Shown piece after piece: positions 21,864 to 37,879 of a stretch of 38,069 nucleotides of DNA (the stretch's first letter is position 1; the number at the start of each line of letters is the position of its first letter). Source of the stretch: an uncultured Ruminococcus sp. (GTDB taxonomy: Bacteria; Bacillota; Clostridia; Oscillospirales; Acutalibacteraceae). Both the position numbers and the translations under genes were made by a program. The notes beneath the pieces are model-generated. The model searched no databases. It saw only the letters and a list, made by a program, of their open reading frames with translations, and had not been told where the DNA came from. The stretch lies in the NCBI GenBank assembly GCA_902798365.1, contig CADBWP010000006.1, forward strand, positions 1 to 38,069, given 5' to 3'.

Positions 21864-21896
21864 CGGCTGTTTAACTCGCCTGTTAAGGCTTAAATC

Positions 21897-21938
21897 AAAA
21901 ATCCCTTTCCGCTCCTTGTGATGCGGAAAGGGATTTTG
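21897..21938. terminator. Bidirectional terminator hairpin
   Basis: A long stem AAAATCCCTTTCCGC / GCGGAAAGGGATTTT with a 10-base loop and T/A flanks on both sides. It can end the giant gene (plus) and the ABC transporter operon (minus). Confidence 0.85.
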
Positions 21939-21970
21939 CTTAGAGATGATTTACGGTACCGTTTTTATAT

Positions 21971-22114
21971 TTAGAAAACCACGGCGTTCCGTATGATGTC
22001 AATACTTTTTGTAAGGGCAGTAATTATATGACTGCAGCGCTCATCATAAAACGGCATAACCTTGCGGACGTTGTCGTCGTATTGACCTGCATTTAATACG
22101 GATTTATTGTCCAT
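21971..22114 (-). pseudogene. N-terminal stub of a class I SAM methyltransferase (47 codons)
   Basis: Starts at ATG 22114 with a good ribosome site (AAGGAAG) and ends at a stop at 21971. The peptide MDNKSVLNAGQYDDNVRKVM continues with PFYDER, which resembles the first residues of small SAM-dependent methyltransferases (x-N-A-x-x-YD-x-x-VRK-x-x-PFYDE). The SAM-binding motif that should follow (DLGCGTG-like) is absent, so the gene is truncated. It lies 14 bases downstream of the ABC permease stop on the same strand. A functional 47-residue peptide is possible but unlikely. The family call rests on a short match. Confidence 0.45.
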
Positions 22115-22128
22115 TGCAATGCTCTTCC

Positions 22129-23715: not shown

Positions 23716-24423
23716 TTATTCCGCCTCCAGTTCGAGGAATACCTCCTCAAGGCTTTCGTCGCCCTTAACATCCTCCATGGTGCCGGACTTTATCAGCCTG
23801 CCCTGCTTTATTATAGCCACCTTGTCGCAGAGCTTTTCGGCGACCTCAAGCACATGTGTCGAGAAAAATATAGCGCCGCCTGCGTCGCAATGCATACGCA
23901 TCATTTCCTTCAGCTTGAAGGCGGCTTTGGGGTCGAGCCCCACAAACGGCTCGTCCATAATGATGAGCTTTGGGGAGTGTATCCACGCAGAAATGACCGC
24001 CAGCTTCTGCTTCATTCCGTGAGAATAGGACGCGATGGGCTGGGCAAGGTCGTTCGTAAGCTCAAAGGCGTCGGCGTATTTTCTTATAAGCTCCTGCCTT
24101 TCGTCAGCCGCAACCCCGTAAATGTCGGCTATAAAGTTCAGATATTTTATGCCGCTCATAAAGTCGTACAAATCGGGATTATCGGGTATGTAGGCGAGCG
24201 CCTGCTTGCTTTTTACCGGATCCTTTCTGACCGAAACGCCGTCTATGTATATTTCTCCGCTGTCACAGTCAAGAATACCTGCCGTACATTTGAGCGTTGT
24301 GGTTTTTCCTGCGCCGTTGTGGCCGATAAAGCCGTATATCTCGCCGCGCCGGATGTGCAGGGACAGCTCATCCACCGCCTTTTTTTCGTCATATGTTTTT
24401 GTCAGTCCTTCGATTCTTAGCAT
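23716..24423 (-). CDS. ABC transporter ATP-binding protein
   Basis: 235 residues from the ATG at 24423, preceded by AGGAGG (on the minus strand); the longer frame upstream lacks a site. Walker A is GHNGAGKTT, the Q-loop region is AYIPDNPDLYDFM, the signature is YSHGMKQKLAV (degenerate LSGGQ, common in exporters of this type), Walker B is LIIMDEPFVGLDP, and the H-loop is FFSTHV. It drives the permease encoded immediately downstream (22129-23715). Confidence 0.95.
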   Translation of the reverse strand: MLRIEGLTKTYDEKKAVDELSLHIRRGEIYGFIGHNGAGKTTTLKCTAGILDCDSGEIYIDGVSVRKDPVKSKQALAYIPDNPDLYDFMSGIKYLNFIADIYGVAADERQELIRKYADAFELTNDLAQPIASYSHGMKQKLAVISAWIHSPKLIIMDEPFVGLDPKAAFKLKEMMRMHCDAGGAIFFSTHVLEVAEKLCDKVAIIKQGRLIKSGTMEDVKGDESLEEVFLELEAE

Positions 24424-24457
24424 TTGGGTTCCTCCTGTCCCGATAGTCTGTGTTATA

Positions 24458-24486
24458 ATTATATATAATGCTAAGCCATTCGTCAA
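24458..24486 (-). promoter_or_regulatory. Sigma-A-type promoter of the ABC exporter operon
   Basis: On the minus strand TTGACG (24481-24486), 17-bp spacer, consensus TATAAT (24458-24463), 34 bp before the ATG. Confidence 0.8.
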
Positions 24487-24534
24487 CAGAAACGCAATCA
24501 ACAATATATTTCCTTTACGGAATTATAATTTTGC

Positions 24535-24563
24535 TTGCATAATCGCGCGGTATATTGTATTAT
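24535..24563 (+). promoter_or_regulatory. Possible promoter of the thioesterase operon
   Basis: TTGCAT (24535-24540), 17-bp spacer, TATTAT (24558-24563), 30 bp before the ATG at 24594. The -35 is imperfect. Confidence 0.5.
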
Positions 24564-24593
24564 TATCTGTGTATTTTACTTTGGGGTGATCGT

Positions 24594-24977
24594 ATGACGA
24601 AAAACACTATAACAAAAACCGTTACGGTTGACGAGGCGCGGCTTGCCTGCAATATGGGCAGCGGAAGCCTGCGCGTGCTGGCAACTCCGGCGGTGGTCGC
24701 GCTTATGGAGAACGCGGCTGCGGAGCTTGCGCAAGGGCTTATCGGCGACGAAGCGCTCACAACGGTGGGCACGGCAATTTCGGTAGAGCACACCTCGCCC
24801 ACGCCCCTGGGGGCAGAGATTTCGGCTACAGCGGTTCTTACGGGTCAGAACGGCAGAACGTTTGAGTTTGAGGTTACCGCGCACGACGCCGGCGGACAGA
24901 TAGCCCGCGGAACTCACACTCGGGTAAGCGTAAAGGCGTACAAATTTCAGGCAAAGGCGGACGGAAAATTTGAGTAA
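24594..24977 (+). CDS. Hotdog-fold thioesterase family protein
   Basis: 127 residues from the ATG at 24594 after GGGGTGA. It matches the fluoroacetyl-CoA-thioesterase-like (FlK-type) hotdog family: TVDEARLACNMGSGSLRVLATPAVVALMENAA (split here: TVDEARLACNMGSGSLRVLA, then TPAVVALMENAA), TTVGTAISVEHTSPTPLG and a final strand FEFEVTAHDAGGQIARGTHTR. It probably hydrolyses an acyl-CoA; the substrate is not readable. It overlaps the HAD gene by 8 bases. Confidence 0.88.
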   Translation: MTKNTITKTVTVDEARLACNMGSGSLRVLATPAVVALMENAAAELAQGLIGDEALTTVGTAISVEHTSPTPLGAEISATAVLTGQNGRTFEFEVTAHDAGGQIARGTHTRVSVKAYKFQAKADGKFE

Positions 24978-25632
24978 GTACAAATACGTTTTATTTGACC
25001 TTGACGGCACAGTCAGCCAAAGTGCAGAGGGCATACGCCGCTCGCTTGAGCACGCGATAACCGTCATGGGCGCGCCCATGCCCGACCTTTCCGACTACAC
25101 GCTCTACATCGGGCCTCCGCTCATAGATACCTTTATAAACCTTGTGGGGCTCGACAAAGAAGACGCGGAGCGCGGCTCGCAGCTTTACCGCGATTATTAT
25201 GACCTGCACGGCAAAAAGCTGAACACGGCATACGACGGCATAGAGGATGTGCTGAAAATTCTCAGAGAGAATAATATGCGCACGGCGGTGTGCACCTCAA
25301 AATACGAGCCCTTCGCACGCGAGATCGTCGATATCCTCGGACTGACGGATTACTTTGACGCGGTGTGCGGCTCAAACCTTGACGGCAGCCGCAAGGATAA
25401 GCGCGACCTTATCCCATACGCCGTGGGCTCCCTCGGCGGCGACTTTGACATTGACAAAGAGCAGACGGTCATGCTGGGCGACACCTATTTTGACGCGCGC
25501 GGAGCAAGGCTGTGCGGCGTTGACTTCATAGGCGTGCGCTACGGCTACGGCTCGGTAAGTGCCATGGAGGACGAAGGCGCTACGGTGTTTGCCGACACTC
25601 CGCAGGAGCTTGCGCGGCTGCTGTGTGAATAA
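24970..25632 (+). CDS. HAD-family hydrolase (phosphoglycolate-phosphatase-like)
   Basis: 220 residues, TTG start inside the end of the thioesterase gene. HAD motif I is LFDLDGTVSQS (nucleophile Asp in DxDGT), motif II is AVCTSKYE, motif III is the Lys around RKDKRDLIP, and motif IV is VMLGDTYFDARGA. A helical cap lies at about residues 17-85. Related to PpaX/Gph-type small-molecule phosphatases; the true substrate is uncertain. Translationally coupled to the thioesterase. Confidence 0.9.
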   Translation: MSKYKYVLFDLDGTVSQSAEGIRRSLEHAITVMGAPMPDLSDYTLYIGPPLIDTFINLVGLDKEDAERGSQLYRDYYDLHGKKLNTAYDGIEDVLKILRENNMRTAVCTSKYEPFAREIVDILGLTDYFDAVCGSNLDGSRKDKRDLIPYAVGSLGGDFDIDKEQTVMLGDTYFDARGARLCGVDFIGVRYGYGSVSAMEDEGATVFADTPQELARLLCE

Positions 25633-25697
25633 AACAAAAAACATCCGCATAGAATTGATCAGGGCGTTCTGCCCGATCACGGTTGCGGAGGAATATC

Positions 25698-26171
25698 ATG
25701 TTCGTGCTTAATTACAGGCTGAAAAAAGCCAAAAGGCTATTCATTGCACTTGCGGCGGTCTCGGCGGCGCTCGCCGTCATTTGCGCGTGTGCGCTTGTGT
25801 TTTCGCAAAGGCTGCCGCGCGACACCGCTGTGTGCGACGCGATAGGCGAGTATTCGCTCAGGGCGGAAACCGAAGAACAGACCAAGGCGTTTTTCGCTCA
25901 GCTTGGCATGGAGGCGGACATAGAGGGCTCCGTCAAAAAAGAGGTCACCATACCGGCGCACTTTAACGGTACGTATCAGGCGTACAACGAGCTGCAGCGC
26001 CACGCAGGGCTCGACTTAAGCCGTTACTGCGGCAAAACCGTTGAACGCTACACCATACCCGTCAGCGGCGCAGGGGCGGACTACGCCGTTATTTTGGTCT
26101 GCAGGGGCAGGGTGATAGGCGGACATCTTACAAACGGAGAATACGGCGGAGAGGATCTGCCGCTGATTTAA
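25698..26171 (+). CDS. DUF4830-like membrane-anchored protein
   Basis: 157 residues from the ATG at 25698, chosen because CGGAGG lies 8 bases upstream. A basic N terminus and one transmembrane helix (about residues 14-35) precede an extracytoplasmic region with AETEEQTKAFFAQLGMEAD, IPAHFNGTYQAYNELQRHAG, the two-residue-spaced YCGK and a final VCRGRVIGGHLTNGEYGG. This resembles DUF4830 proteins of Clostridia (single TM, then a C-terminal beta-rich domain). Function unknown. Confidence 0.75.
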   Translation: MFVLNYRLKKAKRLFIALAAVSAALAVICACALVFSQRLPRDTAVCDAIGEYSLRAETEEQTKAFFAQLGMEADIEGSVKKEVTIPAHFNGTYQAYNELQRHAGLDLSRYCGKTVERYTIPVSGAGADYAVILVCRGRVIGGHLTNGEYGGEDLPLI

Positions 26172-26189
26172 AAAATAAAAGGAACCCAT

Positions 26190-26909
26190 ATGGAAAGACT
26201 TGACAGGCTTTTGTCCTCGCGCACGGGCTGTTCGCGGAAGGACGCGCAAAAGCAGATAAAAAGCGGCGCGGTAACAGTCAACGGAGCCGTGTGCAAGACT
26301 ATCGACGCAAAAATAGACCCCGATTCCGACGTCGTAGAGGCGGGCGGACATGCCTTAGGCGAGGAATACATTTACATAATGCTCAACAAGCCCGCGGGAT
26401 ATGTGTCGGCAACCGAGGACAGGCGCGACAAAACCGTGCTCGACCTTGTGCCGCCCGAGCTCAGGCGAAAGGGGCTGTTTCCGGCAGGTCGCCTCGACAA
26501 GGACACCGAGGGACTGCTCATAATAACGAACGACGGAGAATTTGCGCACCGTATGCTCTCTCCCAAAAAGCATGTGCCGAAGCGTTATATCGCACAGCTT
26601 GACGGCGAGATAACCGACGATGCAAAAAAACGCTTTGAAGAGGGCATAATCTTTGCCGACGGAACCAAATGCCTGCCGGCAAAGCTGCAAACGGTCGAAA
26701 ACAGTCATAATCGTGCAGGAACGGTCGAAATTTGTGAAGGAAAGTTTCATCAGGTAAAGAAAATGTTTGCGGTATGCGGTTTGCAAGTTGTGCACCTTCA
26801 ACGAATTTCGGTCGGAAATTTGTATCTTGATGGCAAATTGCCCATAGGAAGCTGCAAAAAATTGACAAAATTGGATATTGAGCAAATTTTTATGGGCAAA
26901 TTATACTAA
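26190..26909 (+). CDS. RsuA-family 16S rRNA pseudouridine synthase
   Basis: 239 residues; AAAGGAA precedes the ATG. An N-terminal S4 RNA-binding domain (MERLDRLLSS ... VTVNG) is followed by the pseudouridine synthase core: MLNKPAGYVSATED, the catalytic Asp in PAGRLDKDTEGLLIITNDG, KRYIAQLDG, and EGKFHQVKKMF. This order and the EGKFHQVKKM motif are typical of RsuA (16S U516-type) rather than RluB. The 3' end is noticeably more AT-rich than the 5' part. Confidence 0.93.
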   Translation: MERLDRLLSSRTGCSRKDAQKQIKSGAVTVNGAVCKTIDAKIDPDSDVVEAGGHALGEEYIYIMLNKPAGYVSATEDRRDKTVLDLVPPELRRKGLFPAGRLDKDTEGLLIITNDGEFAHRMLSPKKHVPKRYIAQLDGEITDDAKKRFEEGIIFADGTKCLPAKLQTVENSHNRAGTVEICEGKFHQVKKMFAVCGLQVVHLQRISVGNLYLDGKLPIGSCKKLTKLDIEQIFMGKLY

Positions 26910-26935
26910 AAACTGCGCTGATTTTTTACTTGGTA

Positions 26936-26965
26936 TTGATTTTTCATAAAAACATGCGGTAATAT
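26936..26965 (+). promoter_or_regulatory. Candidate promoter of ugpC
   Basis: TTGATT (26936-26941), 18-bp spacer, TAATAT (26960-26965) in a very AT-rich intergenic region. It would give a leader of nearly 90 bases containing the dyad at 27017-27038. Weak support. Confidence 0.4.
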
Positions 26966-27016
26966 TTAGTTAAAATCCGTATAGTAAAAATTTGCGGAAA
27001 GTGATATATTAATATA

Positions 27017-27038
27017 CGTAATAAAATTCGTTATTACG
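27017..27038. promoter_or_regulatory. Dyad upstream of ugpC (operator candidate)
   Basis: A perfect 8-bp inverted repeat CGTAATAA / TTATTACG with a 6-base centre, ending 7 bases before the CGGAGG ribosome site. It may be a repressor site or a small leader hairpin. Confidence 0.5.
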
Positions 27039-27059
27039 AAAAAACGGAGGTATTAGTAA

Positions 27060-28169
27060 ATGGCAAGTTTATCATTAAGAAATGTGTACAAAATTTATGA
27101 CGGCAATGTGACCGCCGTAAAGGATTTCAATCTTGAAATCGCGGACAAAGAGTTTATCATTTTCGTAGGTCCTTCCGGTTGCGGTAAATCCACAACCCTG
27201 AGAATGATCGCGGGTCTCGAGGATATTTCCAAGGGTGAGCTTTACATAGGCGACACCCTCGTTAACGACGTATCACCCAAGGACAGAGATATTGCGATGG
27301 TATTCCAGAACTACGCTCTGTATCCCCATATGTCGGTATATGACAACATGGCTTTCGGTCTTAAGCTCAGAAAGACCCCCAAGGATGAGATAAAGAGAAG
27401 AGTTGAAGAGGCTGCCCGCATCCTCGGCATCGAGCAGTTCCTCGAGAGAAAGCCGAAGGCTCTCTCCGGCGGTCAAAGACAGCGTGTTGCCATGGGTCGT
27501 GCTATCGTTCGTGATCCTAAGGTATTCCTTCTTGACGAGCCGCTCTCCAACCTGGACGCAAAGCTCCGTGCGCAGATGCGTACCGAGATCTCCAAGCTGC
27601 ACCAGAGACTGGGCACAACCTTCATCTACGTAACCCACGACCAGACCGAGGCTATGACGCTCGGTACCAGAATCGTTGTTATGAAGGACGGCGTTATCCA
27701 GCAGGTAGATACTCCTCAGAACCTTTACGACGCTCCCGGCAACATGTTCGTTGCAGGCTTCATCGGATCTCCCCAGATGAACTTTGTTGACGCTGTTGTA
27801 GAGAAGAAGGGCTCCGACTACTTCCTCAAGTTTGACAAGTACGAGATCCCCGTTCCCGCCGACAAGAGCGCAGGCGGCAAGCTGGACGCTTATGTAGGCA
27901 AAGAGGTTTGCTTCGGCATCCGTCCCGAACACGTTCACGATGAGACAGAGGAGCTGGCTAAGGCTAAGATCAAGTTCGAGGCTAACGTTGACGTTACCGA
28001 GCTTATGGGCGCAGAGATTTATCTGTATGTCAACATCGCAGGTCAGCCCATCACCGCAAGAGTTGAGCCCACCTCAAAGGCTAAGGTTGGCGACAAGGTT
28101 GAAATTTGCTTCAGCCTCGACAAGATCCACATCTTCGACAAGGAAACAGAGCAGATCATCACAAACTGA
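27060..28169 (+). CDS. ugpC: Sugar ABC importer ATP-binding protein (UgpC/MsmX type)
   Basis: 369 residues. The nucleotide-binding domain has Walker [12 protein letters not shown]-loop [12 protein letters not shown], signature [15 protein letters not shown], Walker [14 protein letters not shown] and H-loop [10 protein letters not shown]. The C-terminal part (about 240-369) is the TOBE/MalK regulatory region (GIRPEHV ... [12 protein letters not shown]). No permease or binding-protein genes lie nearby, so it probably serves several carbohydrate importers as MsmX does in Bacillus. Codon choice (e.g. frequent GGT, GTT, CGT) looks biased as in highly expressed genes compared with its neighbours. 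Followed by a PucR regulator. Confidence 0.93.
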
Positions 28170-28184
28170 TAATTTGTTTTTTGG

Positions 28185-28213
28185 CGCGGCAGGTTTTCCT
28201 GCCGCGTTTTTTT
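28185..28213 (+). terminator. Rho-independent terminator after ugpC
   Basis: A 9-bp GC stem CGCGGCAGG / CCTGCCGCG with a TTTT loop and a run of seven T, 15 bases after the ugpC stop. Confidence 0.9.
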
Positions 28214-28415
28214 GCGTCGGCGCGGTTATAAGGGCAGACAGCGCCCGCCGGCTTACACTTGTGCAATCCTACAAAATTTCCGCAAAAACGCCAAATGTTA
28301 CAAAATTGTCACACTTCTGTCACATTGGTATGTTATGATACTGCTCAAACGGAATATTATCACACGGCAATCGTTAAATTATCTAAAAAATTTCTTAGAA
28401 ATTTGTTATAAGAGG

Positions 28416-28476
28416 TTGATTTTTTTCTCGATTTTGTGTAATATGTATATGAGAGGGATTGTACCCGGCTACAATC
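28416..28476 (+). promoter_or_regulatory. Promoter and overlapping dyad upstream of the PucR regulator
   Basis: TTGATT (28416-28421), 17-bp spacer, TAATAT (28439-28444). A perfect 7-bp dyad GATTGTA / TACAATC with a 6-base CCCGGC centre (28457-28476) starts about 12 bases after the -10, near the expected transcription start. This position suits an (auto)repressor site. Upstream, 28214-28415 holds no recognisable gene. Confidence 0.6.
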
Positions 28477-28511
28477 ATATTAATATTACGCAGAGAAAAA
28501 GAGGTAAAACT

Positions 28512-29597
28512 ATGTCTAACAGATTATTCCAGGGTATAGTGCATCAGATGAAGGATGCAATTGACAGAACCATCGGCGTTATAGATGAAACTTCCGTAGT
28601 AATTGCCTGCTCGGAGCTCGGCAAGATAGGCGAGGTGAACGAGAGCGTAAACTCCGAGACCCTCAGCTCGACGGCTCCGTTTGTGATCAACGGCTACACC
28701 TACAAATCCTTTGGCAGCAGCGCCAAGTACGACTATGCTGTGTTTGTGCAGGGCACCGACGAATATGCGCAAAAGTACGCACAGCTGCTTTCGGTTTCGT
28801 TTGCAAGCATAAAGCAGTATTATGACGAAAAGTACGACCGTTCCAACTTTATCAAGAACGTCATTCTCGACAACATCCTTCCCGGTGACATTTATCTTAA
28901 GGCAAGAGAGCTTCACTTCAACAGCGAGGTGTCCCGTGTTTGCCTGCTTATCAGGATCGTTTCAAAAACCGACGTTTCCGCATATGACATCGTTCAAAAC
29001 CTCTTTCCCGACAAATCCAAGGATTTCGTCATCAACATCAACGAGGAAGAGATCGCTCTGGTCAAGGAGGTCAAGCCCGACACCGACGGCCGCGACCTTG
29101 AAAAGCTGGCAAGCTCCATCGCAGACACCCTGTCAAGCGAGTTTTACACCCATTGCGTCGTGGGCATAGGCACCACGGTAACGGGCATCAAGGATCTGGC
29201 GCGTTCCTTCAAGGAAGGTCAGTCCGCGCTTGAGGTTGCCAAGGTGTTCGACACCGAGCGCACCATTGTAAGCTACGACAACCTGGGCATAGCGCGCCTT
29301 ATCTATCAGCTTCCCACCACTCTCTGCAAGATGTTCCTCAAGGAAGTGTTCAAGCGCGGCTCAATAGAAAGCCTCGATCAGGAGACGCTGTTCACCATTC
29401 AGCGCTTCTTTGAAAACAACCTCAACGTTTCCGAAACCTCGCGTAAGCTGTTCGTTCACCGCAACACGCTGGTGTATCGCCTTGAAAAGATCAAAAAGCT
29501 TACCGGTCTTGATTTGCGCGAGTTTGAGGACGCTATCGTGTTTAAGGTAGCTCTTATGGTTAAAAAATATCTTAACGCAAGCCCGACAAAATTTTAA
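28512..29597 (+). CDS. CdaR/PucR-type transcriptional regulator
   Basis: 361 residues from the ATG at 28512, after AGAGGT (28499-28504); the longer frame upstream is non-coding. N-terminal region (about 1-115) is a sensor-like domain (TIGVIDETSVVIACSELGKI, resembling sugar-diacid-recognition/PAS types). The middle (about 120-270) is a GGDEF-like/CdaR segment. The C-terminal PucR-type HTH (about 295-355) reads FFENNLNVSETSRKLFVHRN followed by TLVYRLEKIKKLTGLDLREF, the classic PucR signature. Next to a shared sugar-importer ATPase, a role in carbon-source control is plausible but not shown. Ligand unknown. Confidence 0.88.
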   Translation: MSNRLFQGIVHQMKDAIDRTIGVIDETSVVIACSELGKIGEVNESVNSETLSSTAPFVINGYTYKSFGSSAKYDYAVFVQGTDEYAQKYAQLLSVSFASIKQYYDEKYDRSNFIKNVILDNILPGDIYLKARELHFNSEVSRVCLLIRIVSKTDVSAYDIVQNLFPDKSKDFVININEEEIALVKEVKPDTDGRDLEKLASSIADTLSSEFYTHCVVGIGTTVTGIKDLARSFKEGQSALEVAKVFDTERTIVSYDNLGIARLIYQLPTTLCKMFLKEVFKRGSIESLDQETLFTIQRFFENNLNVSETSRKLFVHRNTLVYRLEKIKKLTGLDLREFEDAIVFKVALMVKKYLNASPTKF

Positions 29598-29607
29598 TTG
29601 GATTATT

Positions 29608-29634
29608 ATTGTCAAATGTTATTCTTTTGACAAT
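29608..29634. repeat. Inverted repeat overlapping the start of the PucR terminator
   Basis: Perfect 9-bp arms ATTGTCAAA / TTTGACAAT with a 9-base centre; the right arm overlaps the first bases of the terminator stem at 29632. It could be an operator or an alternative RNA hairpin. Confidence 0.45.
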
Positions 29635-29690
29635 GCCGTGTTTTCCGTTCCCGAACGCCCCTTTTGCGTGTTCGGGACGTTGGCATTTTT
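29632..29690 (+). terminator. Rho-independent terminator between the PucR gene and ftsE
   Basis: Nested stem AATGCC ... GTTCCCGAACGC / GCGTGTTCGGGAC ... GGCATT followed by TTTATT. No convincing promoter could be placed between it and ftsE (29691-29760). Confidence 0.75.
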
Positions 29691-29760
29691 ATTGACCTCA
29701 ATACTATAGGCATAAACCGTTAAAACGGAAAACGCAAAAACATCAGTAACAGGTGGATTT

Positions 29761-30789
29761 ATGATCAATTTTGAAAACGTTTCAAAGGTGTATTCCAACG
29801 GCACACACGCCCTCCACGATATAAGCATCAACATAGAAAAGGGCGAGTTTGTGTTCATCGTGGGCGCTTCGGGCGCGGGCAAAAGCACCTTTCTAAAGCT
29901 TATCATGCGCGAGGAAACACCTACCTCGGGCGAAATAACCATCAACGGCAACAAGCTGTCGCGCCTTAGAAAACGCGACGTGCCCTATTTGCGCCGCCAC
30001 ATGGGCGTGGTTTTTCAGGACTTCCGCCTTATCGACAAAATGAACGTGTTCGACAACGTCGCGTTTGCCATGCGAGCGGTGGGCGAAAGCTCTGCCACAA
30101 TCAAAAAGCGCGTGCCCTATGTGCTTGACCTTGTGGGTCTTAAGTACAAGGCAAAGGACAAGCCCAGCGAGCTGTCCGGCGGCGAGCAGCAGCGCGTAAG
30201 CCTTGCCAGAGCGCTTGTAAACAACCCGGAAATAATCGTTGCGGACGAGCCCACGGGTAACATAGACCCCGAGCTGTCGCATGAAATAATAGAGCTGCTC
30301 ACGCAGATAAACGGCATGGGCACCACGGTTTTGGTGGTTACCCACGAGCACGAGCTTGTGCGCGAGTTCAACCACAGGGTCATCACCATCGACAGGGGAG
30401 AGGTAGTAAGCGATTCCTCCGACCCCACGGTGACCTCAACGCTGCCCGACGCACCGGCTCCGGTCGTTCCGGCTGTTGCCCCGGCAGAGGACGAGCTGCA
30501 GGGCTATGCCGAGGAATACTCGGAGGATATGGGCGAGGCATACGCTCAGCCCGAGGCAGAGGCTTATCCCGCGGAATACGATCCGCAGCGTGACGCGCAG
30601 TACGAGGAGCAGTACGAGGCGGAGGATTTCACATCCGCACCTGCGCCGCAGGTTCCCGTTGTTCCCGTGCAGCCCGTTGTTGAGGAGGATGACGGCGTTA
30701 TCGACATTTCGTCCTTCAGCACGGCAGGTCTTGCCGCAGAGGGCGACGCTCCGCGTTATCCCGACAACGCGGTCAAAAGACCCGACTAA
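29761..30789 (+). CDS. ftsE: Cell division ATP-binding protein FtsE with long acidic C-terminal tail
   Basis: 342 residues. Residues 1 to about 225 are a standard FtsE: INFENVSKVYSNGTHAL, Walker A GASGAGKST, VFQDFRLID, signature LSGGEQQRVSLARAL, Walker B IIVADEPTGNIDP, H-loop VVTHEHELV, IDRGEV. Residues about 226-342 form an extra, low-complexity Pro/Ala/Glu/Tyr-rich tail, probably disordered, not present in typical 220-230-residue FtsE. With FtsX it forms a membrane complex that controls a peptidoglycan hydrolase at the divisome or sidewall. Spaced 18 bases before ftsX. Confidence 0.95.
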   Translation: MINFENVSKVYSNGTHALHDISINIEKGEFVFIVGASGAGKSTFLKLIMREETPTSGEITINGNKLSRLRKRDVPYLRRHMGVVFQDFRLIDKMNVFDNVAFAMRAVGESSATIKKRVPYVLDLVGLKYKAKDKPSELSGGEQQRVSLARALVNNPEIIVADEPTGNIDPELSHEIIELLTQINGMGTTVLVVTHEHELVREFNHRVITIDRGEVVSDSSDPTVTSTLPDAPAPVVPAVAPAEDELQGYAEEYSEDMGEAYAQPEAEAYPAEYDPQRDAQYEEQYEAEDFTSAPAPQVPVVPVQPVVEEDDGVIDISSFSTAGLAAEGDAPRYPDNAVKRPD

Positions 30790-30807
30790 ACCCGAAAGGA
30801 ACATGTT

Positions 30808-31710
30808 ATGAAAGGCTTTGGCTATCTTGTAAAAGAGGGCTTCAAGAACGTCTATTCCAACAGAATAATGAGTATCGCTTCCATATGCGTGCTTGTAAGC
30901 TGTCTGGTGCTGACGGGCGCGGCGTCGCTGTTTACCGTCAACGTTGAAAAAATCGTTGACATGGTTCAAAAGAACAACGAAACCATCGTATATATCTCGG
31001 ACGACCGCACCGAGCTTGAGGCTATTCAAATAGGAAAAAAGATCGAGGAGCTCGACAACGTAAACACCGCGGTGTTTGTGTCAAAGGAAGAGGCTCTTGA
31101 GCAGTACAAGGACAAGCTCGGCGAACAGCTTTTTGCCCGTATCGAGGACAGAAACCGTATGCCGGACTCCTTCCGCGTATCGTTTGAAGAGCTTTCCGGA
31201 TACGACGAAACCGTAAATGAGATCAAGCAGATAGACGGCGTGCAGTCGATCCTCGACCGGCGCGAATTTGCCGATAAGCTGTCCAAAATCAGCAGCCTTA
31301 TCAACCTTATATCCATCGGCATAGTGGCGGCGCTTATCATCATCTCGCTGTTCATCATCGCAAACACCATACGCGCAACCATGTATTCGCGCAGGTTTGA
31401 AATCAGCATTATGAAGTCCGTCGGCGCAACAAACATGTTTGTGCGAATGCCGTTTTTGATAGAGGGTATGGTCATCGGCTTCATCTCCGCCGCACTGTCA
31501 ACGGGCGCTCTGGCGCTGCTCTATCAGGCTATTGTCGGCGTTATCGACAAAACGGGACTGAGCGTTGACTTTATCATCCCGTTCACGGACGTTGTAATTC
31601 CGCTGTGCCTGGCGTTTGTTGCCGTGGGCATACTGGTAGGCTTCTTCGGCAGCTTTATTTCAATCAGAAAGTATCTTAAGATGGAAGGTAACGAGATCCT
31701 CGGTTGGTAA
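30808..31710 (+). CDS. ftsX: Cell division protein FtsX (permease-like)
   Basis: 300 residues with the FtsX layout: cytoplasmic N terminus (FGYLVKEGFKNVYSNRIMSI), TM1 (about 20-42), an extracellular loop (about 45-165, with FVSKEEALEQYKDKLGEQ) that in relatives binds the hydrolase, then three TM helices (about 172-195, 222-245, 262-288). FtsX is not a transporter; it relays FtsE ATP hydrolysis to a periplasmic or surface hydrolase. The immediately following gene encodes the likely partner. Confidence 0.95.
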   Translation: MKGFGYLVKEGFKNVYSNRIMSIASICVLVSCLVLTGAASLFTVNVEKIVDMVQKNNETIVYISDDRTELEAIQIGKKIEELDNVNTAVFVSKEEALEQYKDKLGEQLFARIEDRNRMPDSFRVSFEELSGYDETVNEIKQIDGVQSILDRREFADKLSKISSLINLISIGIVAALIIISLFIIANTIRATMYSRRFEISIMKSVGATNMFVRMPFLIEGMVIGFISAALSTGALALLYQAIVGVIDKTGLSVDFIIPFTDVVIPLCLAFVAVGILVGFFGSFISIRKYLKMEGNEILGW

Positions 31711-31726
31711 CAGGAAGGAGAAAGAT

Positions 31727-33136
31727 ATGAATAAACTTAAGGCTATAATATGCGCCGCGCTCAGCGTGTGCATGATCGCTGTTCCCGTCGCCTCGCACGT
31801 TGTGCTTGAGGCGGGAGCCGAAAGCGTAAAGTCGCTTCAGGACAGGCTCGACGAGCTTGAGCAAAAGAGCGACCAATATCAGGATATCCTGAATAATACA
31901 CAGTCCGACATCGCCGAAAAGGAAGCCTACGGCGACGCGCTGATCAACAAGATCCAGGTGATCGACGAAAAGATAATCCTCACCCGCGAGTCTATCACTA
32001 AGCTCAACGCGAGCATAAGCGAAAAGCAGGGCGAGATCGACGAGGGCAACAAGGATATCGAGGATCAGCTCGACGCGCTCAGCGAGCGTCTGCGCGTTAT
32101 TTACATGGCAGGCAGCGCCAGCGACCTTGAGCTTGTGCTCGGCGCAAAGGATTTTAACGACTTTATCGACAAGGTGTCGCTTGTAAAGACCCTGTCAAAC
32201 TACGACAGAGAGCTTATCGACGGCATAAACGAAAAGCTCGTTGTAATAAATCAGCAGAAGGACGCTCTTGAAACCGACAAAACAAAGCTTGAGGAGCAGG
32301 AGGAGTCGCTCAACAGCGACCTTGAAGAGCTCAACAAGCTTGCCGAGGAAAACAAAGAGGTGCTTAAGGAGCTGACCCAGAAGAGCGAGGCGGCACGCGC
32401 TGCCCTGCAAAACAGTTCAAGCGAGAGCGCACGCATAGAGGCGGAGATCGCCAAGTATTTTGCCGAGCAGGAGGCAGCCAGACAAAAGGCGGCTGAGGAA
32501 GCTGCAAAGCAGAATCAGAACAACACTCCTCCTGACGATTCGCAGTCATCTCAGAGCGGCGGCAACAACGGCGGCTCTTCAATAAACAACAATACCGGCA
32601 ACAACCCCGCGCAGGGAACCACCGCGGCTCCTGCCGACGACGAGGACGATGACGATGATGACGACGATTACGGCGGATCGTCGGGCTATGACGATACACC
32701 GTCTGTTCCGTCCGGCGGCGGCTACGTATGGCCGTGTCCCGGCTTCTATTATCTGTCGTCGCTGTGGAACGAGGACAGAACCACCTATAACCATGGCGCC
32801 ATCGACATAGCGGGCGGCGGAATCCACGGCGCCACGGTAGTTGCAGCGTCCGGCGGCACGGTTCTTTACACCTGCACCTCCTGCATCCACGACTGGGGCA
32901 AGGACGGCAGCTGCGGCTGCGGCGGCGGTTACGGCAACTATGTGTGGATCGACCACGGCAACGGCAAAGAGACCATCTATGCTCACCTTTGCAAGGTAAC
33001 GGTAAGCCCCGGACAGTATGTTTCCGCGGGTCAGACCGTTGGCTATGTCGGCTCCACAGGCTACTCCACGGGGCCGCACCTCCACTTTGAGTGCCGCTAC
33101 AACGGCGTTAAGTACAACCCGATGACGGAGTTTTAA
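31727..33136 (+). CDS. Coiled-coil M23 peptidase (PcsB/CwlO/EnvC-like murein hydrolase)
   Basis: 469 residues. Signal peptide about 1-30 (cleavage near EAGAES). Residues about 35-255 are a long heptad-rich coiled coil (SLQDRLDELEQKSDQYQDIL and onward), as in PcsB, CwlO and EnvC. About 256-335 is a Gln/Asn/Gly/Ser linker with an all-acidic run (residues about 304-313). The M23/LytM endopeptidase domain covers about 340-469: zinc ligands His356 and Asp360 (NHGAIDIA) and H451/H453 (GPHLHFE). An insertion with Cys383-x2-Cys386 and Cys396-x-Cys398 is unusual in this fold. Placed 17 bases after ftsX, it is almost certainly the hydrolase switched on by FtsEX. Confidence 0.93.
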   Translation: MNKLKAIICAALSVCMIAVPVASHVVLEAGAESVKSLQDRLDELEQKSDQYQDILNNTQSDIAEKEAYGDALINKIQVIDEKIILTRESITKLNASISEKQGEIDEGNKDIEDQLDALSERLRVIYMAGSASDLELVLGAKDFNDFIDKVSLVKTLSNYDRELIDGINEKLVVINQQKDALETDKTKLEEQEESLNSDLEELNKLAEENKEVLKELTQKSEAARAALQNSSSESARIEAEIAKYFAEQEAARQKAAEEAAKQNQNNTPPDDSQSSQSGGNNGGSSINNNTGNNPAQGTTAAPADDEDDDDDDDDYGGSSGYDDTPSVPSGGGYVWPCPGFYYLSSLWNEDRTTYNHGAIDIAGGGIHGATVVAASGGTVLYTCTSCIHDWGKDGSCGCGGGYGNYVWIDHGNGKETIYAHLCKVTVSPGQYVSAGQTVGYVGSTGYSTGPHLHFECRYNGVKYNPMTEF

Positions 33137-33167
33137 TCACATAATCGGTACAATATGATAAATAAAA

Positions 33168-33213
33168 ACCCCCAAGGAACGGCTGAATAAAGCCTCCTTG
33201 GGGGTTTGCTTTT
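33168..33213. terminator. Bidirectional terminator between the FtsEX operon and spoVT remnant
   Basis: Stem ACCCCCAAGGA / TCCTTGGGGGT with a 16-base loop, T-rich after it on the plus strand and, on the minus strand, A/T-rich after the complement. Serves the convergent genes ending at 33136 and 33225. Confidence 0.85.
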
Positions 33214-33224
33214 CAACGGCACGT

Positions 33225-33680
33225 TCATGCCTCCATCTGCTTGCCCAAAAACGCAGCGGCGGACTGCGCCAGCTTGACCTCTGCCGGTGTGGGCAGCTTC
33301 AGGTTTTCTCCGCTGAGCAGCACCACCGAGCCCATAACGTCGCCCGAGGCAATTATCGGATATATGACCGCCGCATTGTGCTCCATGCCCTCAATGGGCT
33401 GAACGTTTTGCAGGGTTTGCTCGCTCGCCGCGTAGCTTTTGCGGTTGTCCATATAGTTTTCAAGAACGGGGCTTATGCGCCGCTCAAGAAACTCACGCTT
33501 AGACACGCCCGCCGCCGCAATAACGTGATCGGTGTCGCAGATGAGCGTGGGCATAGAGCTTATCCGCGCGATAACGTCTGCGTACTGCGCCGCAAACGCC
33601 GACAGCTCCCCAACGGGAGAGTATTTTTTAAAAATGACCTCGCCGTCGGTCGCCGTATAAATCTCAAGCGGGTCGCCGTC
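33225..33680 (-). pseudogene. spoVT: spoVT 3' part (missing the first ~30 codons), interrupted by mobile element
   Basis: The SpoVT family is recognisable by ISDGDPLEIYTATDGEVIFK, then KYSPVGELSAFAAQYADVIA, LICDTDHVIAAAGVSKREFL, and YPIIASGDVMGSVVLLSG with a final AAAFLGKQMEA. SpoVT is an AbrB-type regulator of forespore genes with an N-terminal swapped-hairpin DNA-binding domain and a C-terminal GAF-like domain. Compared from memory with the 178-residue Bacillus protein, the C-terminal ~148 residues are all here; about residues 1-30 are missing and replaced by recombinase sequence. The missing 5' part should lie on the far (right) side of the element, outside this window; no matching sequence is visible up to 38069. 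Confidence 0.85.
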
Positions 33681-35348
33681 ACTGATAATGTTGACAGCAA
33701 ACTTCTTATCTTTTGTGTTTTTACTTTGCTGATTTTGCTCTTTTTCAAGATCGGCGTTATTGATGTGCAGAATGTGGTCAATGTCGTCTTTCAGCTTGAT
33801 GTGGATGTGGTCTTCGTAAACCGTTATCTTTTCGATCAGCAGTTCAAGGTCGTTTTTCTCTAACTTTTCCTTGTTCAGTATCTCGTCGAATAGATCTATC
33901 GCAAGCTGTGCCGTGCGGTTCGCGCTGACAACGGTGTTGTGCTTGTCGTAGGTCAGCTTGATTTGATTTTCCAAGCCCTCGATCCGCTCGTCGCATTCCG
34001 CGATCAATTCGTCGTAGGTTTCTTGTATATCTTTTTCACGTTCGGGCTTTCGGGCAATGTCTCTTGCGCATTGCCGCATGAGAGCCTTTTTTTCTGCCTT
34101 AGTGTCGTCGATCATTTCTTCAAGCTGTTCGAGCGTGTTGTTGGTGGTTTGGATATGCTTTTCTTCCTCGGCTATCGTTTCTTGTAAATTTTCTATCATT
34201 TCCGAGGAGGTGTCGCGCACCATTTGCAGATACGCTTTCATGATCGCGTCGAGCGTGTCCACGCGGATGTGGTGGCTGGTGCAGCCCTTTAGTCCGCGCT
34301 TGTGGTATTCTCCGCAGCGGTAGGCTTCTTTGAGGTCGCTCCTGCTCATCGGGAACATCGGACTGCCGCAGTCGCCGCACACCATCAAGCCGGAGTAGGC
34401 GTTGGTGTATATCCTGGTGCCGCGGTAGTTGTTGCGCGTGCGCTCCTGCATAGCGTTTTGCGCGGTCGCATATACGCGGTAGTCGATGATCGGTTCGTGG
34501 TTTTTGAGGAAGATGATGTGATCGCTTTCATCGCGCTTTATGTCCTTTCCGTTGATTTTCTTGCGCGTGTATTTTCCCTGCCGCAGTGTGCCGATGTAGA
34601 AATCGTTTGTTAAAATTCCCTGTATCGTCGCGATGCTCCACTGCGATTTTGCTTTGAGGTGACATTCCTCGCCGCGCGCTTCCTTTCGTGCGCGTTCGTT
34701 CATTCTCGGCGTGGGGATATGTTGGTCGGTGAGGTAGTTGGCGATCCGCTTGTAGCCCCAGCCCTGATTGTACAGCTCATATACCTTTCGCACAACGACA
34801 GCCTCGGTCGGTTCGATCTCAAACGCCATCGTTTTGGAGTTGGTGATCACATAGCCGTAGGGGACAGAGCAGATCCATTTGCCGTCCTGCTGCCGCCTTT
34901 TGATGACGTTGCGCACCTTTTTGGAGGTGTCGGTGACGGGCATTTCGTTCATGAAGAAGTAGATTTGAATCCGCAGCCAATCGTCATTGGTGGGGTAGTC
35001 GATGTTGTCGCCGATAGCGATGATGCGGATCCCCTCGTCGCGCAGGGCTTCCAGTTCCACTAAGCCCGCGCCGTTCCTTCGGGAGAATCGGGAGAGGTCT
35101 TTGATTATCAGAATGTCGTATTGATTGCGGAACAGCTTGCGCCGCATTTTCTGATATCCCTCGCGCTGTTCAAAGGTGTAGCCGCTCTTGTCCCTGTCCT
35201 CGTAGAAGTCGAGCTCCGAGTTTGGGAAGTTGGTTTTAACATAGTCCTCAATGATAGCCTTCTGGTTTTCGATCGAGGTGTTTTCTTTGTTCAGCTCATC
35301 GTCTACTGAGATACGGCAGTAGGCGGCAATATAGAATTTTTCAGTCAT
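33225..35348 (-). CDS. Large serine recombinase fused in frame to the C-terminal part of SpoVT
   Basis: One 707-residue ORF. Residues 1-556 are a TnpX/integrase-like large serine recombinase: resolvase domain with catalytic Ser14 (AAYCRISVDDE) and KDLSRFSRRN, a Recombinase domain (GKWICSVPYGYVI ... YELYNQGWGYKRIANYLTD ... TIQGILTNDFYIG), a zinc ribbon starting at Cys324/Cys327 (VCGDCG ... YRCG ... GCTSHHI), a coiled coil (about 385-480) and a C-terminal DUF4368-type segment. Residues 557-707 are SpoVT from about its residue 31 onward (GDPLEIYTATDGEVIFKKYS ... GELSAFAAQYADV ... AAAFLGKQMEA). ATG 35348 with GGAG upstream. The junction is in frame with no stop. This is what site-specific integration into spoVT would produce. 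Expression as a chimera, or recombinase truncation after excision, is inferred. Confidence 0.93.
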   Translation of the reverse strand: MTEKFYIAAYCRISVDDELNKENTSIENQKAIIEDYVKTNFPNSELDFYEDRDKSGYTFEQREGYQKMRRKLFRNQYDILIIKDLSRFSRRNGAGLVELEALRDEGIRIIAIGDNIDYPTNDDWLRIQIYFFMNEMPVTDTSKKVRNVIKRRQQDGKWICSVPYGYVITNSKTMAFEIEPTEAVVVRKVYELYNQGWGYKRIANYLTDQHIPTPRMNERARKEARGEECHLKAKSQWSIATIQGILTNDFYIGTLRQGKYTRKKINGKDIKRDESDHIIFLKNHEPIIDYRVYATAQNAMQERTRNNYRGTRIYTNAYSGLMVCGDCGSPMFPMSRSDLKEAYRCGEYHKRGLKGCTSHHIRVDTLDAIMKAYLQMVRDTSSEMIENLQETIAEEEKHIQTTNNTLEQLEEMIDDTKAEKKALMRQCARDIARKPEREKDIQETYDELIAECDERIEGLENQIKLTYDKHNTVVSANRTAQLAIDLFDEILNKEKLEKNDLELLIEKITVYEDHIHIKLKDDIDHILHINNADLEKEQNQQSKNTKDKKFAVNIISDGDPLEIYTATDGEVIFKKYSPVGELSAFAAQYADVIARISSMPTLICDTDHVIAAAGVSKREFLERRISPVLENYMDNRKSYAASEQTLQNVQPIEGMEHNAAVIYPIIASGDVMGSVVLLSGENLKLPTPAEVKLAQSAAAFLGKQMEA
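33675..33690. other. Presumed attachment junction (att) of the element inside spoVT
   Basis: On the minus strand the frame passes from AT-rich recombinase codons (FAVNIIS) into GC-rich spoVT codons (DGDPLEI). The crossover must lie within or close to these bases, where codons for SDGD would be shared by the two att sites. Large serine recombinases use a 2-bp core; its exact position cannot be set without the other junction. Confidence 0.6.
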
Positions 35349-35460: not shown

Positions 35461-35652
35461 TTACGCCGAGAGTTTTTCGGCGGCAGCCTTGCGGTTTTGC
35501 TTCATCAAACAGTAAAGACTGTCCGCCAAATCGTTCTCGCCCGATTCCACCACAACAGAAAGATAAGAAAGATTTTTCAAGGCTTGTGCGTTGTCCTCAA
35601 TTGATTTCAATATCTTTCCGTCGGCGGATTCTTTTTGATTCAGAAAAAACAA
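35461..35652 (-). CDS. Small hypothetical ORF, possibly a 5'-truncated remnant
   Basis: 63 residues from the first ATG; the frame is open up to 35694, giving another 14 codons (IIIEVKEKPKLVLF) that also look protein-like. There is no ATG or ribosome site at that upstream position, only a nearby ATGAGGTGA where the frame is blocked by the TGA. Residues KILKSIEDNAQALKNLSYLS and LADSLYCLMKQNRKAAAEKL look like amphipathic helices. I do not recognise the family. It follows the RHH-like fragment on the same strand and may be its broken downstream part or neighbour. Confidence 0.4.
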   Translation of the reverse strand: MFFLNQKESADGKILKSIEDNAQALKNLSYLSVVVESGENDLADSLYCLMKQNRKAAAEKLSA

Positions 35653-35733
35653 AACCAGCTTCGGCTTTTCCTTTACCTCGATTATGATAGTTTGTCACCT
35701 CATGGTTATTATTTCCTGCTTAACTTCAAATAA

Positions 35734-36149: not shown

Positions 36150-36362
36150 TTATGACGCTTTCTCTAAGAGCACAGTGATCGTATAAAGATTTGTTGTGTT
36201 GCTGCCGTTCATTCTTTTTCTGTTCTGTAAATCGATAAGAGCAAGGTTTTGCAGACTCGCCAATGCTTTATCGACCGTTCTCAATGTGATACAGCATTCC
36301 TTCGCAATCAACTTGCGCGATGGAACCACAGCAGAAAAACAATCCGCTGAGCGGCAGTGTAG
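36150..36362 (-). pseudogene. Winged-helix (replication-initiator-like) gene fragment
   Basis: The minus-strand frame from 36362 to the stop at 36150 has no start codon. It encodes SRKLIAKECCITLRTVDKAL, then ASLQNLALIDLQNRKR and GSNTTNLYTI, a helix-turn-helix and wing pattern like that of RepA_N/HTH_36-type proteins of plasmids and conjugative elements. The N-terminal part is lost and the fragment runs antisense under the first codons of the DUF6076 gene. It is therefore a decayed remnant. Confidence 0.55.
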
Positions 36363-37363
36363 TCACAGTTCCGTTAGGTGAGGCGCTGTTTGAATTTATG
36401 TACGCGGATTTTGATTCGCTGTATGATGAGGTCGAACTTAGATTGTACAAATATGAAGAGTTTGAATTGCCGGATGCCGACAGCAATATGCAGGACAACA
36501 TCAACCGGTTCATATCTTACCGCGCGTATAAGGAATTGATAAATTATCTTGCATTCGGTTCAACCGCTTCCGCGATGTTTCCTCCGAGCGTAAAAAACGG
36601 CGTTGATATTTCTGAAGCGATGGATGACTATTATCAATATTTGAAAACGCTTCAAAAGGAATATAAAGAGGTTTTGGAGTTTTGTTTTGATTCCAAGTTT
36701 CATACGGATGTGTTAGGAGATATGACGCCTGCCGTGCGCTATTATCTCTACCGCAAGATAAAGAAAATGCCGCCCTTCGTCGAGTTCAACGAAGAGCAGC
36801 GATTGCTTATGGGCGATAAGAAAACCTCAGCTGATTATGATCCGTTAGAGCTTGCCGATTTTGCGCGCGAGCATAACATCGACGCGTACACCTTGATGTA
36901 TTTCCACAACTACGACCATAATCCGGTTATCCGTTACCGTTGCGAGAGCTTGCACGAGTTTTTGGAGTTAGAGTTTAACAAGCTGATCGAGTATGGCGTG
37001 AAGCTGAAACGCTGTGAACGCTGCGGACAGTTCTTTATAATCAAAGGTAACTATGACGCGCGGTATTGTAATCGTATCCATTTCGGTGAGATACGTACCT
37101 GCCGCGACCTTGCTGCCGAGGAAAACTATAAAAATAAAATGGCAGAGGACAAAGCCCTGCCAATCTATAGAAAATATTACCGCCGCTATTCCGCGCGAGT
37201 GAAAGTGAACCAAATCAAACAGCCTGACTTTAAGAAATGGAAATATGCAGTCCTAACCAAGCACGACGACTGTTCCAACGGCATAATCACCGCAGAGGAA
37301 TACATCGACTGGAACGAGGCGTATTTCCCCAACCGCAAGCGCGAGTACAAGCAATCTACATAA
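36320..37363 (+). CDS. DUF6076-like protein with Cys-rich motif
   Basis: 347 residues from ATG 36320. The C-terminal half contains LKRCERCGQFFIIKGNYDARYC followed by NRI and GEIRTCRDLAA (motif: C-x2-C at about 234-237, then Y-C-N-R and T-C-R), a probable zinc-binding motif typical of the DUF6076 family found in clostridial mobile elements. The remainder is charged and helical. The start is uncertain: no ribosome site precedes 36320, and the first ~14 codons overlap antisense to a wHTH remnant. The next ATG is at 36398 (residue 27). The gene may be truncated at its 5' end. Function unknown. Confidence 0.7.
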   Translation: MEPQQKNNPLSGSVVTVPLGEALFEFMYADFDSLYDEVELRLYKYEEFELPDADSNMQDNINRFISYRAYKELINYLAFGSTASAMFPPSVKNGVDISEAMDDYYQYLKTLQKEYKEVLEFCFDSKFHTDVLGDMTPAVRYYLYRKIKKMPPFVEFNEEQRLLMGDKKTSADYDPLELADFAREHNIDAYTLMYFHNYDHNPVIRYRCESLHEFLELEFNKLIEYGVKLKRCERCGQFFIIKGNYDARYCNRIHFGEIRTCRDLAAEENYKNKMAEDKALPIYRKYYRRYSARVKVNQIKQPDFKKWKYAVLTKHDDCSNGIITAEEYIDWNEAYFPNRKREYKQST

Positions 37364-37657: not shown

Positions 37658-37879
37658 ATGGCGGTTTGTTATAAAAAACTCTGGAAACTGTTAATTGATA
37701 AAGATATGAAGAAAATTGATTTAGAGCGTGAAGCGGGAATTACCCATTATGCGTTAGGTCAGCTTTCACGTGGAAAAGATGTGTCAACAGAAGTCTTAGG
37801 GAAAATATGTCAGACGTTAGATTGCTCTATTAATGATATTATGGAGTTCATTCAGGATTCGGAGGCAAGTCATGATTGA
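37658..37879 (+). CDS. Xre-family small HTH regulator (HTH_26 type)
   Basis: 73 residues, all one Cro/C1-type helix-turn-helix: [40 protein letters not shown], and [18 protein letters not shown]. This is the HTH_26 (PF13443) pattern. GGGGG precedes the ATG. The stop overlaps the next gene by 8 bases, so the two are coupled. Such regulators commonly control toxin-antitoxin, restriction or other defence operons; here it probably autoregulates the promoter at 37597. Confidence 0.9.

Follow-up and report, generated by a model that had tools for sequence, protein, structure and literature searches.

Islands of a large serine recombinase that split spoVT in rumen and gut bacteria, where the gene is a probable docking site

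The gene for the sporulation regulator SpoVT is found split in many rumen and gut bacteria, judging from their assembled genomes, by an island whose recombinase reads in frame into the 3' part of the gene. We consider it probable that an island family moved by a large serine recombinase uses spoVT as its fixed docking gene (attB), and that excision of the island would rebuild spoVT.

The chimeric frame and the missing 5' half

The stretch of DNA analysed (the window, 38,069 nucleotides) is the entire contig C6 of its genome (G000) and includes 4.4 kb of the island, namely its right part from 33678 to the contig end at 38069. An ORF of 707 codons with zero internal stops occupies positions 33225-35348 on the minus strand. 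Its first part (33678..35348) carries the Pfam domains Resolvase (residues 7-158), Recombinase (180-303) and Zn_ribbon_recom (318-374), and Ser14 is invariant in alignments of 10 and 30 rows. A serine is the catalytic residue of large serine recombinases, and the three domains together with this residue place the protein in that family. The remaining part (33225..33677, the host side of attR) matches SpoVT_C, which we take to be a GAF-type domain, at residues 581-706 (E 3e-40), and positions 27-180 of the 180 of the SpoVT model TIGR02851 correspond to residues 555-706. Recombinase and SpoVT meet at ...AVNIISD-GDP-LEIYT... (GDP codons at 33677-33669), so that SpoVT residues 31-180 follow the recombinase. 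A sequence-only reading of this DNA had described just such a chimera, without a stop at the join and with SpoVT from about residue 31 on, and both points agree with the ORF and its domain matches.

The genome lies in 74 contigs and is 86% complete, which leaves some room for an assembly or binning chimera, the case that the sequence-only reading had named against itself. The same join recurs, however, in many independent assemblies, including those of the isolates Anaerotruncus massiliensis AT3 and R. bicirculans 80/3, and we regard this explanation as negligible. A scan of genome contigs (genome_contigs) gave 349 relatives of the recombinase, and among the best 80, which were kept and which are ranked by likeness to known fused recombinases so that the count is no prevalence, 75 are fused in frame to SpoVT_C at identical codons. 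An identical join in so many of the closest loci is neither chance nor a mis-join; the recombinase-SpoVT(C) frame is real and no assembly artefact. Among the non-fused loci, L085 has SpoVT_C in another frame following a frame break, L121 shows an attP-like joint at a contig end and L122 runs off its contig. Two close recombinase relatives, L120 (G099) and L098 (G169), end in ...VNVIS[N/D]GD and continue into other DNA without spoVT; G099 also has a complete spoVT, and G169 a fused copy on another contig. We considered L098 as a frame-broken fusion and rejected this, as there is no spoVT at that place. The two loci possibly represent other target sites or rearranged ends.

A SpoVT profile search of the window's own genome (E up to 10) matched three places: the fused 3' part in the window, a 5' part on contig C22 (46453-46557, plus strand; 64 bits over model positions 1-35) and, weakly, a place on C36 (29.5 bits over model positions 7-49). 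The 5' half on C22 starts with an ATG at 46450 (plus strand) and is joined to the other end of the island, encoding MKATGIVRRIDDLGRVVIPKEIRRTLRIREGDP, then SQITLIPWLNFCVNIGRFAERQGLD, then a stop. Past the att core the contig runs on for ~0.8 kb with one more ORF. The element was claimed to split spoVT, and the first ~30 SpoVT residues do lie beside the other att site, where that claim had directed the search. Instead of a complete spoVT elsewhere and no 5' part, the other case named against it, the genome holds the 5' part, and no complete copy was found by the profile search of this assembly at 86% completeness.

On the host side, single ORFs of C22 recur upstream of complete spoVT in the relatives G021 and G010. 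The expectation that relatives carry an uninterrupted spoVT downstream of ftsEX held in its first part, a complete or near-complete gene being present in 69 of 98 relatives (G000 included; G077 from position 7), but not in its second: no counterpart of the window's C-side ORFs (15000-33210, ftsEX among them) was seen next to a complete spoVT in stretches of 23 relatives. Nor was synteny found between the window's two flanks and G002, the nearest relative with a complete spoVT.

Attachment sites and the rebuilt gene

The att core of the window is GGCGAC (33672..33677, minus strand; codons G31 and D32). We wrote attP from both island ends, as left arm (recombinase end), one base, GGNGAC, three bases and right arm. 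The 17-nt left arm of the window (33679..33695, minus strand) encodes the end of the recombinase part and forms an inverted repeat with the arm on C22, matching at 13 of 17 positions, with the centre of the dyad in the rebuilt attP at GA (33674-33673). Both arms could be read in 37 of 40 genomes, in which the 17-nt arms are complementary at a mean of 13.5 of 17 positions (range 9-16), against 2.5-4.5 in controls slid by -1, 1, 2 or 3, and the dyad lies on GA within GGNGAC. Inverted-repeat arms, a short common core and a non-palindromic central dinucleotide are what is expected of the att sites of large serine recombinases. The arms vary between islands yet stay complementary (for example in G015 and G103), indicating that the two ends belong together.

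The recombinase frame crosses attP in the phase in which spoVT runs through attB, and integration therefore swaps C-termini. The paired sites show that the recombinase would lose its own ~25-residue C-terminus on integration and gain SpoVT residues 31-180, while the first ~33 SpoVT residues would gain a recombinase tail, giving ORFs of ~56-65 aa in the halves read. Recombination of attL with attR at the GA of GGNGAC would excise the island, restore the 180-aa SpoVT and return to the recombinase its own tail. When the halves are joined computationally, a gapless 180-aa SpoVT results in 7/7 genomes (with the P33 codon taken from the 3' side in two of them), identical at 154-174 of 180 positions to the nearest of nine complete SpoVT. 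The proposal that excision would restore SpoVT is thus borne out at the level of the predicted product, the halves rejoining without gap or frame change.

The positions of the halves are consistent with one inserted island. In 21 genomes, compiled by hand from the search tables, both halves lie on the same strand of one contig with the 5' half upstream, 11.1-86.9 kb apart (median 20.1 kb); in G141, one of the 21, the 5' half on the shared contig carries a variant core, GGCGCC, and G111, G093 (both in opposite orientation) and G122 (a degenerate 5' match) were left out. An empty site is seen in G035, where genes that flank the 5' half in G012 and G017 lie upstream, and those that flank the 3' half downstream, of one complete spoVT. 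A gene split by a recombinase-carrying element and uninterrupted in a relative (G035 against G012 and G017) has the features of a gene-intervening element. G033, the genome nearest to G015, shares the C side only.

Several other arrangements were observed. In G093 (contig C2) spoVT is split at the same codons, with the halves 240 kb apart at 697996 (plus; L038) and 938272 (minus; L039), in opposite orientation, in other flanking sequence and without a fused recombinase. In G111 (C2) the halves (L226 and L227) lie on opposite strands of one contig, 24 kb apart, through either an inversion or an assembly fault. Two loci have a 5' half 0.9-1.1 kb ahead of a complete spoVT: L043 (G025:C49, ~2591 and 3456), where the half is decayed, and L042 (G083:C17, 377 and 1493); both are possible scars of lost islands. 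Some Ruminococcus-type genomes have tandem 5' halves 1.5-9 kb apart, most with an element-coded tail, as in L255 (G138:C430, at 690, 6322, 7801 and 12393) and in L256, L257, L258 and L259. Their DNA is ~67-79% alike and their protein nearly unchanged; one copy is broken at the core, and the core is GGCGCC rather than GGCGAC in 4 of 15 listed. This looks like a cassette array. On R. bicirculans 80/3 chromosome II (L223, 90-1724), a second ORF, serine-recombinase-like by look, directly follows the spoVT 3' half. In G033 (L075, C8 21676-40000), a HipA-like ORF and a polysaccharide-type cluster, both named by look, lie directly upstream of the complete spoVT, an arrangement that resembles a fixed island with this type of cargo.

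Joints of the excised form are rare among the assemblies. In G098, the recombinase contig C12 passes the core into left-end sequence, an attP-type joint as in a circle, and the spoVT 3' part starts another contig just past the core. C12 also holds an attL copy, 10 kb away, from which the joint differs by one base, so that the joint may stem from another strain or a second copy. In G122, two contigs fork at the core: C25 ends within it (GGTGACCCG), and C79 starts with the same bases and continues as attL. We rejected a plain attB/attL mixture here, as the next base of the 3' part is that of attL and the fork comes one base early; the fork may reflect strain variation in these contigs. No attB or attP excised joint was seen in the window's own genome, whose spoVT halves lie on separate contigs. 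The attP pattern, at 3 mismatches, matched 0 of 394 genomes of the order, a search that would miss diverged arms and in which the number of carriers is unknown.

Distribution, movement and cargo

Among the 98 relatives, 11 have a recombinase-joined spoVT 3' part and none of these 11 has a complete spoVT. In ten the joined part lies in an open frame, 715-837 codons long. In the eleventh, G006, the recombinase frame is broken and there is a second spoVT 3' part, cut by the contig start, so that a second spoVT copy is conceivable there. Ten of the 11 belong to the window's genus (60 genomes including G000). A profile search of the genomes behind 32 fused and related loci (first set) found the joined 3' part in 30, and one of the genomes behind 41 further loci (second set) in 39, with a broken frame in G170; complete spoVT was found in 0/30 and 0/39 of these, respectively. 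The 5' half is present in 28 of 31 genomes of the first set (28 of the 30 split genomes without the virus record), G099 being left out because its recombinase lies outside spoVT and a complete spoVT is present. In the second set it is present in 27 of 41, counted where the match ended by position 40, with only some read base by base. As G169 of the second set is apparently G050 of the 98 relatives (same contig and coordinates), the sets are not summed. Hosts of fused loci include Ruminococcus flavefaciens, R. bicirculans, Anaerotruncus massiliensis, Dysosmobacter, Oscillibacter, Butyricicoccus and Pseudoflavonifractor. On viral contigs, 3 of 20 recombinase relatives are fused; one of the 20 gave no profile match, and most of the remaining ones are distant.

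Recombinase dS is below 0.5 in 37 of 2850 fused-locus pairs, and spoVT dS is the larger in 33 of the 34 such pairs with both values defined (0.97 against 0.014 for L096/L097, and 1.7 against 0.049 for L130/L133), indicating that the islands move between species. The pair L094/L156 behaves in the opposite way (spoVT dS 0.44, recombinase dS 1.98), which by these values is a case of different islands in related hosts.

The regularity of the join also bears on whether the fusion itself is the product, with the SpoVT GAF-type domain recruited as a regulatory tail of the recombinase. This would account for in-frame joins in 75 of the best 80 of 349 loci, with recombinases of differing lengths, and the SpoVT part of fused pairs has a low dN/dS. 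However, the att sites fix the phase once, so that an in-frame fusion needs no further selection, and each island takes the SpoVT part of whichever host it entered. We therefore consider this explanation improbable.

Just upstream of the recombinase, the window has an ORF of ~75 aa (35461..35685, minus strand) whose family is present in 65 of the 72 loci that yielded upstream ORFs (75 examined, the window included). Of its 63 same-strand members, 45 end 73-164 bp before the recombinase frame and all others lie up to 4.2 kb away. It matches no known family in Pfam, NCBIfam or PHROG. From its position, we propose it as the best candidate for a recombination directionality factor, which would help excision. 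Ahead of its conserved first strand, the window copy lacks a standard start codon, so that excision could be impaired here.

The window's share of the cargo includes, on the plus strand, a DUF6076 ORF (36320..37363) and a Cro/C1-type HTH regulator (HTH_26; 37658..37879), both by Pfam. In eight islands (89 of 113 ORFs), Pfam families include type I restriction, AbiH, GmrSD, RhuM and relaxase among others, PADLOC reports type I restriction and candidate defence families (among the first 25 of 219 matches), and surface-polysaccharide genes abound in the two large islands, those of G015 and G037. No phage structural genes (terminase, portal, capsid) appeared among the first 25 families of 81, 52 and 68, respectively, a look that covered 89 of 113 ORFs in the eight islands, 37 of 38 in G015 and 51 of 71 in G037.

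Among known elements, SCC is moved by Ccr large serine recombinases, always enters the end of the gene rlmH/orfX, carries restriction systems or polysaccharide loci and forms tandem units. The spoVT island resembles it in its CcrB-related recombinase, its fixed site in one gene, its restriction and polysaccharide cargo and, in some genomes, its tandem units. It is nevertheless not SCC: the CcrB match reaches 113.9 bits against a curated cut-off of 900, and the site of the 75 fused loci is inside spoVT. The recombinase is also related to XisF of the fdxN element (104.8 bits, below the cut-off of 375). That element interrupts a developmental gene of heterocyst cyanobacteria; host, gene and element are different.

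The closest precedent is gin, a non-phage island in gerE of Bacillus cereus with a serine recombinase and restriction genes; according to the available passages of PMC5595907 it likewise sits in a short sporulation regulator gene, has a 9-bp core with an inverted repeat and rebuilds gerE on excision. It differs in that gerE is a mother-cell gene, gin carries three recombinases and its excision is proven, whereas excision of the spoVT island is predicted; those passages do not mention a fusion of recombinase and host gene. As far as the consulted parts of the sources go (PMC5595907, PMC4191935, PMC10747680), skin (sigK), SPbeta (spsM), vfbin (spoVFB), vrin (spoVR) and yin (yabG) also cut a sporulation gene in two, and in sigK and spsM excision rebuilds the gene. 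Several of them are prophages or prophage-like, and sigK, spsM, spoVFB and spoVR are mother-cell genes as opposed to the forespore SpoVT. The spoVT islands, in contrast to this group, share one recombinase family and, across dozens of genomes, one site, and their cargo varies. A search of titles and abstract openings, covering few subscription papers, found no published element in spoVT.

Host sporulation and the fate of the island

The sequence-only reading had seen in the split gene a fit with a commensal losing sporulation. This is not supported here: all 42 genomes examined have spoIVA above the cut-off, and spoVT is split in 28 of these (in the control of 14 genomes, B. subtilis only), so that loss of host sporulation is not indicated. 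A long sigma-G-type match was found in 41 of 42 (G050 being a contig-end fragment), which is weak evidence, as none is above the model cut-off and the control matched in 10 of 14 genomes. The published passages of PMC3789822 place SpoVT among the forespore-line regulators of both B. subtilis and C. difficile; the spoVT mutant of the latter forms no heat-resistant spores.

Excision may be coupled to sporulation, as it is in skin and gin, or it may be occasional, with most cells lacking SpoVT for as long as they carry the island. Programmed excision, in which the island leaves during sporulation and switches spoVT on as skin does in sigK, we hold as a tentative possibility. It agrees with the retention of spoIVA, with the precedents just described, as far as the consulted parts of those papers reach, and with strong protein constraint on the 5' halves: pN/pS is 0.069 in 58 of these against 0.059 in 37 complete genes, although the halves were picked by pattern, which favours conserved ones. 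The constraint is also seen in ten pairs from five 'Lapin' genomes, where recombinase dS is 0.46-0.61 and spoVT dS 0.46-1.15, with 5-16 synonymous against 0-4 non-synonymous changes in the 5' half. Recent horizontal spread, with young insertions, could nevertheless give the same constraint without any excision. The element-coded tail has a pN/pS of 0.74 across all pairs, a weak constraint, and we do not claim strong selection on it. A sigma-G-like promoter motif lies upstream of 11 of 58 5' halves against 1 of 37 complete genes, counts too thin to use.

Permanent disruption, in which spoVT is simply knocked out by the island and carriers form few spores or none before they lose it, is also possible, if somewhat doubtful. 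To our knowledge, some carriers, R. flavefaciens and R. bicirculans, are not known as spore formers, and carrier assemblies show integrated ends, the G098 joint excepted. The phenotype of the C. difficile mutant (PMC3789822, in the parts consulted) points the same way. On the other hand, most carriers have clean 5' halves and retain spoIVA, and the decayed half beside the complete spoVT of G025 suggests that unused halves decay.

The compartment in which SpoVT acts weighs against programmed excision as well. According to the consulted passages of PMC4191935, SPbeta is excised in the mother cell only, which leaves the prophage in place in the spore, and the genes cut by vfbin and vrin are likewise mother-cell genes; all precedents of stated compartment, in sigK, spsM, spoVFB, spoVR and gerE, are of this kind. 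If SpoVT acts in the forespore as in B. subtilis and C. difficile, programmed excision would delete the island from the spore chromosome, unless SpoVT is a mother-cell protein in these hosts; a deleted island would have to be kept as a circle or re-inserted at germination. By its anatomy the spoVT island is a gene-intervening element, and its forespore target would pose an inheritance problem absent from the known cases.

A speculative reading, which we think unlikely, would join these observations: the tail of the recombinase, its own in the circle and the SpoVT GAF-type domain in the insert, would set the direction of recombination and tie excision to a forespore sporulation signal, spoVT would be a germ-line switch, and serial islands would form a cassette array. 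If so, the integration state would be written into the recombinase, with the tail swap and not only a separate factor setting direction. Spores would leave without the defence or polysaccharide island, or with an unlinked copy of it. Each serial island would be headed by its own 5' spoVT half, and excision to different halves would remove different numbers of cassettes.

The mother cell dies, so that the elements described in sigK, spsM, spoVFB, spoVR and gerE, as the available passages present them, stay in the spore. Unless SpoVT is used differently in these bacteria, the spoVT island instead faces one of three outcomes: departure from the germ line, rescue as a circle, or loss of the spore by its host. 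With spoVT as the probable docking gene, these islands would offer many new recombinases with defined att sites and, in gut bacteria, a widespread vehicle resembling SCC for restriction and surface-polysaccharide loci. They would also provide a clear test, in named culturable isolates, of how mobile DNA and development are reconciled.
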